Positions 1 through 17,630 of a stretch of 49,540 bases of DNA are shown in pieces (the first letter of the stretch is position 1; the number at the start of each line of letters is the position of its first letter). The DNA comes from Syntrophaceae bacterium. GTDB taxonomy: Bacteria > Desulfobacterota > BSN033 > UBA1163. Made by a program: the position numbers and the translations under genes. A model generated the notes under the pieces. It had not been told where the DNA came from and did not search any database. It saw only the letters and a list, made by a program, of their open reading frames with translations. Location of the stretch: positions 1 through 49,540 of the forward strand of contig JACAEV010000164.1 of NCBI GenBank assembly GCA_013388645.1. The letters are read 5' to 3'.

Positions 1-1079
1 ACATGACAGACTCCAGTAAGTGTTTCAATAGCATAAGGAAAATACCTTTTCTTAAACCAGAGCGCCACATTGACCAAACTGATCAAGACCGGAACTTCCA
101 GCAAAGGACCGATAACAGCCGCAAACGCCTGGCCTGAGTTAACTCCGAACACAGCCACAGCCACGGCAATGGCCAGCTCAAAATTATTCGAGGCTGCGGT
201 GAAACTAAGTGTAACGGACTGTTCGTAGGTAGCCCCCACCTTCTTTGACAAATAAAAGGAGATAAAGAACATGGCTACGAAATAGATGAATAATGGAATC
301 GCTACCCGGACGACGTGCATTGGAAGCTGGACAATGTATTCCCCTTTGAGGGAGAACATGACGAGAATCGTGAAAAGCAATGCAATTAATGTGATCGGAC
401 TAATTTTGGGTATGAATTTCTCTTCATACCACTCCCGTCCCAGTGTTTTTAAACCGATGAGTCTTGAAAGAACACCTGCAATGAAAGGGATTCCGAGATA
501 GATGAAGACGCTTTCAGCAATCTGACCTATCGTGATGTTCACTGCCATGCCTTTTAATCCTAACCATGGCGGAAGCACAGTAATGAAGATGTATGCATAG
601 ACGGAGAAGAAAATGACCTGGAAGATGGAGTTGAAAGCAACAAGGCCTGCGCAATATTCCCTATCCCCTGAGGCCAGATCATTCCATACGATGACCATGG
701 CAATGCAGCGTGCCAGGCCGATCAAAATCAAGCCAACCATATATTCGTGGTAACCAGAAAGAAAGGCAATGGCTAAAAGGAACATGAGGATAGGACCAAT
801 GATCCAATTCTGGATGAGAGAAAGGGTAAGGACTTTGTAGTTCCGGAATACCTGTCCAAGCTGTTCGTATCTCACCTTTGCCAACGGTGGATACATCATC
901 AGGATCAGACCTATGGCAATAGGAATATTGGTCGTCCCAACCTGAAACTGATTCCAGAAATCCACGATACTGGGGAAAAGATACCCCCAACCCACGCCTA
1001 CAAACATTGCCAGGAAGATCCACAAAGTTAAAAACCGATCCAGAAATGAGAGTTTTTTCATCACCTGTTCTCCAGCCAT
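1..1079 (-). CDS. acr3: ACR3-family arsenite efflux permease (3' end beyond window)
   Basis: An open frame of 359 codons runs from the ATG at 1079 to the window edge with no stop, so only the last few residues can be missing (the family is about 350-370 residues). The translation is a polytopic membrane protein of about ten hydrophobic segments. It carries the ACR3 signature around residues 122-139, including the conserved Cys at residue 125 followed by Ile-Ala-Met-Val and the WNDLASGD stretch. A second conserved block with SNNFELAIA lies near the C-terminus. Members of this family extrude As(OH)3 across the inner membrane, driven by the proton motive force. The gene starts 3 bases after the arsR stop and its ribosome site lies inside the arsR end, so the two are co-transcribed and probably translationally coupled. 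Confidence 0.93.
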
Positions 1080-1082
1080 CCT

Positions 1083-1469
1083 TCAAATCCTCCTCTTAAT
1101 TTTTTTACGCACTTTCTTTAATTTCATGAGTGCCTTGCAGCTCCCTTGCTTCTTAAGTTCTAATAACTTGTCCTTGTCCTCACGAAATTGAGGGAAATGG
1201 GATAACTGCATTTTTAGAAAATCGATTTGAGCCTTGTAAATCCCATTCTGCGAATCCTTCAGGCGGTAGTGCATCCAAACTCCTGCTCTTTTACTCTCAG
1301 TAATGCCGGAATGTTTCAGGTAGGCGAGATGTCTCGATACCTTCGACTGCGGTTCATCCAGAACGTACATCAGGTCGCAAACGCAAAGCTCGCCTTGCGT
1401 GAGAAGCATCATGATCCTAAGCCTTATTTCATCTGAAAGGGCTTTAAAAAACTGTGTTAACTGTTCCAT
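1083..1469 (-). CDS. arsR: ArsR/SmtB-family arsenic-responsive repressor
   Basis: A 128-residue winged-helix protein. The metalloid-binding ELCVCDL motif is at residues 27-33, giving Cys29 and Cys31 as arsenite ligands. The third Cys of the E. coli protein is a Met here, which is common in this family. The recognition helix (PQSKVSRHLAYLK) follows. A TTG nine bases upstream is possible, but AAGGAG is ideally spaced for the ATG at 1469. The C-terminal 35 residues are Lys-rich. It heads the arsR-acr3 operon and is expected to repress it until arsenite binds. Confidence 0.93.
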   Translation of the reverse strand: MEQLTQFFKALSDEIRLRIMMLLTQGELCVCDLMYVLDEPQSKVSRHLAYLKHSGITESKRAGVWMHYRLKDSQNGIYKAQIDFLKMQLSHFPQFREDKDKLLELKKQGSCKALMKLKKVRKKIKRRI

Positions 1470-1498
1470 ATTATGCAACTCCTTTATATTTGAATCCG

Positions 1499-1537: not shown

Positions 1538-1741
1538 GAGAAAAATATTACAATGTAGTAACCATTCACTCATTCCGTGGGGAATAGGACTTCCTCCTAA
1601 CCTATTCATGTCGAATCTATCCGCGTTCTATGGATTTTCGGAAATATCCCTCTCGTGCCTAAAATATTTCCGCCTTTCAGTGAGTGATAACCGCAGTTTT
1701 TCTAATTGCCAATTGAATTGGTATTTGTTAATATTGTTCCA

Positions 1742-1975
1742 TTGAAGCCCATCAAATATACAAGGCGTGCCAAGAACAGGATGAGGTGGCACAAAATTAC
1801 TGAGTCGGAGGTAGAATCAGCCTTAAAGGCACCTGAATTTCTTGAACCATCCGTGGAGAATAGATTGAATGCATGGATAAAGATTTATGATAAATTCCTT
1901 AGTCTAACATACAGAGAGGAAAGCGATAGAGTTTTAATCATCAGCGCTGTAAAGAAGAATAAAGGGTGGAGGTGA
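1742..1975 (+). CDS. DUF4258-like small protein, putative toxin
   Basis: A basic protein of 77 residues. The opening YTRRAKNRM followed by ITESEVESAL matches the start of DUF4258 domains (His/Arg-rich helix, then an 'I-s-e-e-v' helix), and the C-terminal strands (RVLIISAVKK) fit as well. The start is uncertain: a TTG at 1742 keeps the whole domain, another TTG at 1706 adds 12 residues, and neither has a clear ribosome site. It ends 6 bases before a DUF2283 gene. Such pairs recur in bacterial genomes and behave like toxin-antitoxin modules in gene neighbourhoods, but no activity can be read from the sequence. Confidence 0.6.
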   Translation: MKPIKYTRRAKNRMRWHKITESEVESALKAPEFLEPSVENRLNAWIKIYDKFLSLTYREESDRVLIISAVKKNKGWR

Positions 1976-1981
1976 TTCCAT

Positions 1982-2212
1982 TTGAAGATCGAATATGACA
2001 GAGAGGCTGACGCCCTGTATATCCAGCTCAGGGAGGTATATGTTGAAGATAATATTGATGTGGAAGAAGGCATTACCCTTGACCTCGATGAAAACAGACA
2101 CATTGTAGGAATCGAAATCCTCGATGCCAGTAAAAAACTTTCTTTAAAAGACTTGGTCAATATCACCATCGAGAACATTCCTGTGGACCGGATTGAGGCC
2201 ACAACGCGTTAA
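1982..2212 (+). CDS. DUF2283 family protein, putative antitoxin partner
   Basis: A 76-residue acidic protein. It opens with the DUF2283 hallmark (Y-D-x-E-A-D-A-L-Y-I-x-L, residues 4-15), followed by an acidic turn (GITLDLDENRHIVGIEILDAS) and a C-terminal helix. Translation begins at a TTG placed 8 bases after GGAGG, a good ribosome site that lies in the end of the preceding DUF4258 gene. The tight spacing and the acidic/basic pairing with its neighbour suggest a two-gene module. The biochemical role of the family is not established. Confidence 0.8.
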   Translation: MKIEYDREADALYIQLREVYVEDNIDVEEGITLDLDENRHIVGIEILDASKKLSLKDLVNITIENIPVDRIEATTR

Positions 2213-2354
2213 TAAAATAGTCTATCGTCCATCATTTTTCTGCTTAACTAAAGAGGCAATGCACTTTTCCTACATTACTGGTAAGGTAGCTTATTAAACA
2301 GACTGTTTCGGGTTTAGTTTAATTGGATCGGTGAACTACCGGCAATCAGACCCC

Positions 2355-2561
2355 TCAGGCTCCTCCAAAGCCAACTGTCACCTTGCCTCCCTCGACAATG
2401 ACGGGGACTTGTTGGCGGCCACCAGAAAGTTTCAACATCTCATCAAGTTTTTTAGGGTCTGAACCTACATCGAAGAAAACCGCTTTGTCTCCATAGGCTT
2501 CACGAGCCTTAGTGGTATAGGGTCAACTTATCGTGCCGAAAATCTTCACTTTTGTAGCCAT
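2355..2561 (-). CDS. Glutaredoxin-like selenoprotein (UXX-star family), in-frame UGA = Sec13
   Basis: Reading from ATG at 2561 (GGAGG with good spacing upstream) gives 12 residues, then TGA (2523-2525), then an uninterrupted frame to TGA at 2355, 68 residues in all. Around the UGA the protein reads ISU-PYTTKAREAYG. This is the CPYC/CPYT redox site of a glutaredoxin/thioredoxin fold with selenocysteine in place of Cys, and the cis-Pro loop QVPVIV and GGKVTVGFGG follow as in that fold. A stem-loop with apical loop CGTGA begins 18 bases after the UGA, the spacing of the E. coli fdhF SECIS. The alternative, a pseudogene, is unlikely because the frame and fold are intact on both sides. The organism would need selABCD elsewhere. 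Predicted role: small thiol/selenol redox protein of unknown partner. Confidence 0.85.
2485..2525 (-). promoter_or_regulatory. Candidate bacterial SECIS element
   Basis: Downstream of the in-frame UGA the mRNA can form AGGCU-CGUGA-AGCCU, extended by CCA/UGG below a small internal loop. The apical loop starts 18 nucleotides after the UGA and carries a G at its second position, matching the distance and loop rules for SelB-dependent recoding. Folding was done by eye. Confidence 0.65.
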
Positions 2562-2714
2562 TTTTTCCTCCTCTTTTTAAAAAATTCGTATTAATTTAGT
2601 AGTTGTTCGAGTTCGTTTCATAAAATCCCTCCCAACCCCCCTTTGCCAAAGGGAGGAAAAACATTTCCGCCTTTGGACAAAGTAGAAGTATAGGGGTAAT
2701 GCCTCATCTAAACG

Positions 2715-2812: not shown

Positions 2813-3925
2813 TCAATACGGAATGGGTCTCTTTAATCGAGCTCTTGATGATTCGATCAGGTTCTCAATCTCTTTGTCAGATTCCATTTTTGGGTGCATC
2901 AGGATGAGATAATTTTCATAAGCATTTTTTCCTTCGGAGCTTGGCATTTTTTTCTTTTGTTCAATCAATATGGCCTGTAAATCCTTCAGGCCTTTTATAT
3001 CTTTTTCATATTTTGGATCTTCTATTTTTTTCTGGGTTTCCTCGATTTTTTTCTGAATTAAGGTTTTGGATGAGATATCTATGAATTCAGAAGATCCCTT
3101 GATTAAATTTAAATTCATCCTGCCAACATGAGCGCCAAAGGCATCCGTCTGGACATAAATAGAGCGGTGAATCTGTTTTGGGAAAATGAAAGAGCGGTCG
3201 TTCCCTCCAATGATGATCGAGAGCCGCGGCACTTCTTTGGCAAGGGATTCAATTTCAGGTGGAGTTAAATGGGCAAGGGCGACGATATGATCACAGGAGG
3301 CCATGAAGCGATTGATGGTCTCCTTGGCAGCTTTGGTGGGATTTTCGATGGAATAGTTTTTAAGTTCTTTTTGAATATTAGGGGGAATTTCATTGGTGAT
3401 CAAGCCGAGAATTCCGATTTTGATGCCTTCGATTTCTTTGATGAGGTAGGGTTTAAAAATAGGTTTATTTGTCTTTTTATCTTTGAGATTTGCAGAGAGG
3501 AATAAAATCTTAGAATTTTTTTGAAGATTTTTTAGATATTCAACTCCCAAACCGAGATCAGTATCTCCAATATTGAGGGCATGATAACCCAAGGTTTCAT
3601 ATAACGTTAAAACAAACTCTGCCCATCTTCGGGCTTTATCTCTTTCGTTCGGTTGGCCATAATAACTCATGACCAATGCATCCCCTCCATCGATGGTCAG
3701 TAGATTTTCAGCCTCCTGTCTGACTGTTTTGAGGTAGTGAGCCCTTCTGGGTAACCCTCCGTTATCTCCTCCTTCGGGGCAAGTGCTACACGGTTCTAAC
3801 TCCCCCAGGGTATTCGACGTGTAGATCAATGTGAGCGAGGCTTCCGTTGCAAGACTGAGGTGATTTTCCATATGGAACAAGAGAATCAGAAGAAGAATGC
3901 CGATCCATAGGATTTTAGTTCTCAT
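2813..3925 (-). CDS. Secreted metallophosphoesterase (5'-nucleotidase/UshA N-terminal-domain type)
   Basis: A 370-residue protein with an N-terminal hydrophobic signal segment (residues 5-20), so it is exported. The body matches the calcineurin-like domain of UshA-type 5'-nucleotidases: TIDGGDAL (metal-binding Asp), LNIGDTDLG, FLSANLKD, IGILGLI and an IVALAHLTPPE stretch. The C-terminal nucleotide-binding domain of UshA is absent; residues about 285-330 form a charged, coiled-coil-like segment instead. Near the N-terminus is a CSTC pair in a GELEPC context, seen in deltaproteobacterial relatives that are often fused to cytochromes; no CXXCH haem site is present here. It stands alone. Substrate unknown. 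Confidence 0.7.
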   Translation of the reverse strand: MRTKILWIGILLLILLFHMENHLSLATEASLTLIYTSNTLGELEPCSTCPEGGDNGGLPRRAHYLKTVRQEAENLLTIDGGDALVMSYYGQPNERDKARRWAEFVLTLYETLGYHALNIGDTDLGLGVEYLKNLQKNSKILFLSANLKDKKTNKPIFKPYLIKEIEGIKIGILGLITNEIPPNIQKELKNYSIENPTKAAKETINRFMASCDHIVALAHLTPPEIESLAKEVPRLSIIIGGNDRSFIFPKQIHRSIYVQTDAFGAHVGRMNLNLIKGSSEFIDISSKTLIQKKIEETQKKIEDPKYEKDIKGLKDLQAILIEQKKKMPSSEGKNAYENYLILMHPKMESDKEIENLIESSRARLKRPIPY

Positions 3926-17501: not shown

Positions 17502-17540
17502 GATTATTATCTTAAAAGAATAGAATTAAATTCTACACTG

Positions 17541-17613
17541 TCGATAAAACCAAACCATGAGTAATCGTGGGACGGAAAGCCACGGGTCCTATTGGGATGG
17601 CCGGGTTGCCGAA
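17541..17613 (+). ncRNA. GEMM-I class cyclic-dinucleotide riboswitch aptamer
   Basis: The conserved core is present: AAACC, a P2 helix CCATGA-GTAA-TCGTGG with a GNRA tetraloop (17555-17570), GGACGGAAAGCC, a short P3, and the hallmark GCCGGGTTGCCGAA at the 3' side. Aligning the AAACC block to the V. cholerae Vc2 aptamer puts A17549 at position G20. G20 is read in c-di-GMP aptamers, and A20 marks the GEMM-Ib group that prefers 3',3'-cGAMP in Geobacter. The class call is firm; the ligand is an inference from one aligned base. A terminator follows directly. Confidence 0.88.
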
Positions 17614-17630
17614 ATCAAAGAAGATATTTC

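Follow-up and report, generated by a model that had tools for sequence, protein, structure and literature searches.

A predicted UXX-star family 1 selenoprotein with two selenocysteines, encoded beside arsenic efflux genes in a Syntrophaceae bacterium

One end of the window, by which we mean the whole stretch of 49,540 nucleotides from a Syntrophaceae bacterium analysed here, carries on its minus strand, in this order, genes for an UshA-like protein, a predicted selenoprotein of the UXX-star type, an ArsR/SmtB-family regulator and an ACR3 arsenite efflux transporter (Table 1). Two small plus-strand genes separate the UXX-star gene from the ArsR and ACR3 genes, and represent a possible toxin-antitoxin-like insertion. 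Two kinds of dispersed intergenic repeat occupy about 2621-2800, between the UshA-like and UXX-star genes, and a 202-nt probe has 35 matches in the host genome, itself included. We also would like to point out a c-di-GMP-I-GGC riboswitch aptamer (RF03167) at 17540-17614 of the plus strand (62.9 bits, gathering threshold 59).

Table 1. Predicted features around the UXX-star gene, in window coordinates.
Feature	Position	Strand	Basis
ACR3 arsenite efflux transporter, truncated at the window edge	1..1079	-	TIGR00832, 464 bits (cut-off 282.8)
ArsR/SmtB-family regulator	1083..1478	-	NF033788, 84.8 bits (cut-off 55)
Two small genes	1706-2212	+	one weakly DUF4258/BrnT toxin-like, one DUF2283
SECIS 2, core stem CGGU/ACCG (2329-2341), loop AGUUC, almost wholly past the reading frame	2320..2348	-	bSECIS rules; covariation in 29 homologues
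Predicted UXX-star family 1 selenoprotein gene, 71 codons, two Sec (U13, U69) and a UGA stop	2346..2561	-	NF041114, 101.3 bits, profile 1-70 of 70
Predicted true stop codon UGA	2346..2348	-	aligned with the stops of homologues; outside the bSECIS rules
UGA2, predicted Sec69 of the C-terminal U-x-x-stop	2355..2357	-	UGA in 29/29 family members, stop exactly three codons on in 29/29
SECIS 1, upper stem AGGCU/AGCCU, loop CGUGA, inside the coding sequence	2491..2515	-	bSECIS rules; covariation in 28 sequences
UGA1, predicted Sec13, replacing the first Cys of a CPYT motif	2523..2525	-	UGA in 27/29 family members, Cys (UGC/UGU) in 2/29
Shine-Dalgarno sequence AGGAGG, 5 nt 5' of the ATG	2567..2572	-	direct sequence reading
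UshA-like protein, Cys form (EPCSTC) of a Sec-containing family	2813..3925	-	NF041198 and NF049981, both under cut-off; EPCPSU paralogue L114

Read on the minus strand from 2561, the UXX-star frame yields 68 residues, MATKVKIFGTISUPYTTKAREAYGDKAVFFDVGSDPKKLDEMLKLSGGRQQVPVIVEGGKVTVGFGGA, before it reaches UGA2; continued to 2346, it becomes a frame of 71 residues with two in-frame UGA codons and the tail GGAUGV-stop, of which the part from UGA2 to the stop spans 2346-2357. Residues 13-16 of the protein, at the glutaredoxin active site, are UPYT. Translation by the standard code gives only 12 residues, and the plus-strand reading of 2355-2561 makes no sense as protein. The initial annotation had placed at 2355-2561 a hidden, glutaredoxin-like selenoprotein gene of 68 codons with a strong ribosome site and with a UGA substituted for the first Cys in a CPYT site. 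The ribosome site and the substitution are both borne out; the reading itself is also real, but it lies on the minus strand, which had been left unstated, and runs through UGA2 to its end at 2346. When both strands were scanned for frames that are interrupted by UGA and carry a SECIS-like hairpin, among frames that do not fall mostly within open reading frames of 150 aa or more, only the UXX-star gene emerged, together with one 44-codon candidate, which is taken to be due to chance.

Homology is decisive for this assignment, a hairpin by itself being weak evidence: against NF041114 (UXX-star selenoprotein family 1, curated cut-off 72 bits) the 68-residue form scores 92.8 bits, which already upholds the proposal of a selenoprotein gene at this place, and the 71-residue form reaches the higher score given in Table 1 and fills the whole profile. 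The Pfam glutaredoxin model PF00462 is also matched (27.5 bits, gathering threshold 22.9). When the host genome and its relatives, 148 genomes in all, were searched with NF041114, 85 had a match and 37 a match over the cut-off (the host counted), and most of these 37 matches extend to profile position 70 and contain two TGA codons in frame. The best of them have, after GFGG-(T/S/A), a UGA, two codons and a stop. The nearest named relatives found, of which the best are 58 to 64% identical, are mostly uncultured Syntrophobacterales, Syntrophaceae and other Deltaproteobacteria. We aligned 29 sequences, from related genomes and including the window gene. UGA or Cys stands at the first site in all of them, as anticipated by the initial annotation, for which a lack of homologues with either residue there would have spoken against the gene; Cys at site 1 combined with Sec at site 2 is also found in L101, L102 and L107. 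The C-terminal UGA and, after two further residues, the stop are invariant in the alignment, a constancy due in part to the choice of sequences, which were picked as high scorers of a profile extending over the C-terminal residue. Three places after UGA2 the stop is UGA in 17 sequences, UAA in eight and UAG in four. A variant of these proteins (L091, L092, L094, L095, L096, L108 and L109) has UPFC at site 1, an insertion resembling SLRGGIPLF and the tail GGTU(P/A)V(K/N), with a hairpin-like stretch 3' of the second UGA; its named carriers are mostly Syntrophaceae and other deltaproteobacterial MAGs.

Since the relatives share the arrangement of UGA, two codons and stop, and the longer frame scores higher, the gene is best read from sequence as 71 codons at 2346-2561, with two Sec and a UGA acting as the real stop. 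Ending translation at UGA2 would instead leave a protein of 68 residues with U13 as its only Sec; UGA2 is indeed a stop in the standard code, and the 68 residues are already over the NF041114 cut-off. This shorter product is nevertheless very improbable, given the gain in score and profile coverage on extension, the U-x-x-stop of all 29 relatives, the strong covarying SECIS 2 after UGA2 (see below) and the two Sec residues listed for the family, together with the motif UxxT, in a 2026 review of prokaryotic selenoproteins (PMC13188914). UXX-star family 1 and its two Sec have thus been tabulated already, and the two-Sec gene of the window is a further member of that computationally predicted family. 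With the family, also labelled 'distant Grx-like protein 1', it shares the full-length profile score over cut-off, UxxT, two Sec, the C-terminal U-x-x-stop and the glutaredoxin fold; nothing separates it from the other members, its UGA stop being that of 17/29 (itself included), and only the core stem of its SECIS 2 is shorter than in near relatives. The initial annotation had named the right family but tied the name to the U-PY(T) of the active site, whereas "UXX-star" in our reading denotes the C-terminal U-x-x-stop, by analogy with KCU-star, which is named for a Sec just before the stop. KCU-star (DUF466) selenoproteins also have a Sec at their very C-terminus, and a SECIS element has been reported 3' of its codon (PMC4607533), but they are unrelated proteins with a single Sec, which is their last residue.

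Putative SECIS elements were sought at each UGA with the published rules for bacterial SECIS, or bSECIS (loop 3-9 nt, stem 4-16 bp, G in the first two loop positions, spacing 16-37 nt, MFE <= -7.5; PMC13188914), applied by our own implementation and not by bSECISearch. The hairpin after UGA1 (spacing 18, loop CGUGA starting 19 nt on, 5-bp stem, -7.6 kcal/mol) conforms to all four rules, and that after UGA2 (spacing 17, 4-bp stem, -9.6 kcal/mol) conforms as well, while the stop UGA fails. The SECIS-like hairpin of the initial annotation corresponds to that after UGA1; the second element lies outside the coordinates then given. As 6.7% of the 2182 UGA triplets that the window contains pass the rules by chance (2.6% with tight spacing), the SECIS 1 hairpin alone is weak evidence; its single-sequence folding does not differ significantly from shuffles (z -1.65 to 0.09), and an Rfam search of the gene region gave chance matches only, none of SECIS type.

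Across the family, 19/29 first sites and 25/29 second sites pass the rules. In counts that took in all members, including those with another hairpin register, 85.7% of the cells of SECIS 1 were paired over 28 sequences, with two-sided changes in 16 cells and pairing of 21-55% in slid controls; for SECIS 2, over 29 homologues, 80.3% of the cells were paired, 49 cells had two-sided changes, which touched all seven pairs, and slid controls gave 30-48%. None of 500 shuffles matched the observed pairing or covariation score at either site; note that shuffles ignore the relatedness of the sequences, which the slid controls preserve. By a separate score, a strong hairpin stands in register at 24/29 second sites, whereas control offsets yield one in 1 to 3 of 29. 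Because site 2 is non-coding, codon constraint does not explain its covariation. The core stem of SECIS 2 has 4 bp in the window gene and 7 bp in the close relative L045.

Constraint on the protein is visible in comparison with the G001 orthologue (80% identity), where third positions hold 24 of the 37 in-frame nucleotide differences and 44 of the 60 nucleotides after the stop differ. AlphaFold2, run with the 29-row alignment, predicts a beta-alpha-beta-alpha-beta-beta fold (pLDDT 82.2, pTM 0.62) for which the top PDB matches in Foldseek are glutaredoxins, so that a glutaredoxin fold is predicted for the UXX-star protein, consistent with the glutaredoxin-like character first ascribed to it. 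The UGA codons could in principle be mutations or assembly errors in a decayed or mis-sequenced Cys gene of an ordinary glutaredoxin, and the host genome is a draft of 250 contigs (95% complete, 4.94% contamination). The same UGAs recur, however, in dozens of independent genomes, and the third-position pattern and the SECIS elements at both UGAs further oppose this reading, which the homologous sequences already refute and to which we attach a practically negligible probability.

The genome that carries the two-Sec gene also appears equipped to decode it. SelB (380 bits), SelA (629.9 bits) and tRNA-Sec (82.8 bits; called by ARAGORN as tRNA-SeC with anticodon TCA, i.e., UCA) were found, SelA and tRNA-Sec on one contig (C230). 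This accords with the expectation of a Sec-decoding organism, also as regards selB and selC, whose absence would have counted against the gene; of the four components selA, selB, selC and selD, only the last was not recovered in the draft assembly, its best match scoring 83 bits against a cut-off of 125, and we interpret the sub-threshold matches as HypE and further proteins resembling AIR synthase. Since 14 of 17 genomes of the same family have SelD over the cut-off, each with one in-frame TGA, its absence here is likely a gap in the 95%-complete assembly. The co-occurrence of Sec decoding across relatives is uninformative, as 133/148 have tRNA-Sec over the cut-off. At least two other likely selenoproteins occur in the host genome, namely a UPYC glutaredoxin (L018) and an UshA-like protein with EPCPSU (L114). 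The L018 gene (G000:C228:2914-3108), a second glutaredoxin-like selenoprotein gene, lies beside a frame that by eye resembles uvrA. Its product scores 87.4 bits with the YruB-type glutaredoxin model (cut-off 88.55) and 55.1 bits with NF041114 (cut-off 72); as a classical UxxC Sec-glutaredoxin, it shares with the UXX-star protein the Sec at the first active-site position and the glutaredoxin fold, but differs in having UPYC and no C-terminal Sec. In sister genomes, in-frame TGA codons are seen in SelD and in several UshA-like proteins, and the lineage therefore appears rich in selenoproteins.

On comparative grounds we regard as shown the frame, the two Sec sites with their SECIS elements, the predicted fold and, except for SelD, the decoding machinery. 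We consider it highly probable that the locus encodes a functional two-Sec member of UXX-star selenoprotein family 1, with the gene, its two Sec and their decoding all predicted. SelB and tRNA-Sec would read UGA1, at residue 13 in the U-P-Y-T active site that belongs to a glutaredoxin fold, aided by the hairpin within the coding sequence. They would also read UGA2, at residue 69 in the C-terminal G-G-A-U-G-V-stop, aided by the hairpin of the 3' untranslated region. The third UGA follows UGA2 by 9 nt and, with no hairpin at the required spacing, would end translation. The two selenols may act jointly as a redox pair or as a metalloid ligand, and the pair possibly supports the efflux of arsenic, or of a similar metalloid, where the gene adjoins those for ACR3, ArsR and the UshA-like protein.

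The neighbourhood is conserved in part of the host's family. UXX-star scores over the cut-off in seven genomes of the family; ACR3 lies within about 5 kb of the gene in five of them (the host, G000, and G005, G009, G012 and G016), and an UshA-like gene without TGA adjoins it in five (G000, G001, G009, G012 and G016), the UshA-like gene order being the same in the last four. The UshA-like protein of the window falls under the curated cut-offs (217.1 of 275 bits for NF041198, 53.9 of 140 for NF049981) and has EPCSTC, without the Sec in CxU/CxxU that marks the Sec-containing form, its Sec-containing paralogue being the EPCPSU protein mentioned above. Related clusters contain DsbD/ArsG-like, ArsE-like thioredoxin and ArsP-like permease genes. 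From this conserved arsenic efflux setting, and from the suggestion that Sec may serve as a metal ligand in UXX-star proteins (PMC13188914), we infer, with moderate confidence at best, a thiol/selenol redox or metalloid-binding role tied to arsenic in the host lineage; a literature search for a selenoprotein together with arsenite efflux gave no match. The protein could instead be an ordinary cytosolic thiol/selenol oxidoreductase, its arsenic neighbourhood being due to a chance gene order peculiar to the lineage. In genomes outside the host's family the UXX-star gene stands in other neighbourhoods (e.g., L115 and L116), and the ACR3 link, found mainly within the family, is absent from G003, of the same genus, and from G018, outside the family, both of which keep ACR3 on another contig; against this stand the ACR3 and UshA-like neighbours in the family genomes, although this synteny could be inherited gene order, shared descent explaining part of it. 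We give the ordinary oxidoreductase close to an even chance, and regard an arsenic-linked role of the UXX-star protein as plausible but somewhat doubtful. The fullest proposal, in which a two-selenol metalloid carrier or reductant serves arsenic handling with ACR3 and the UshA-like protein, and in which one hairpin outside the frame gives opposite meanings to two UGA codons 9 nt apart, making the locus a natural test of SECIS spacing, we hold to be rather unlikely as a whole.

Genes of this kind are easily lost or cut short, as illustrated by the truncated product of standard translation and by a careful reader who still stopped at the second Sec codon. The parts worth following are the arsenic setting and the two UGAs of opposite meaning. 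With a Sec-UGA, two codons, a stop-UGA and a covarying non-coding hairpin in 17/29 members, the spacing rule for UGA recoding becomes directly testable, and the conserved arsenic efflux setting offers a testable context for a selenoprotein family of unknown function.
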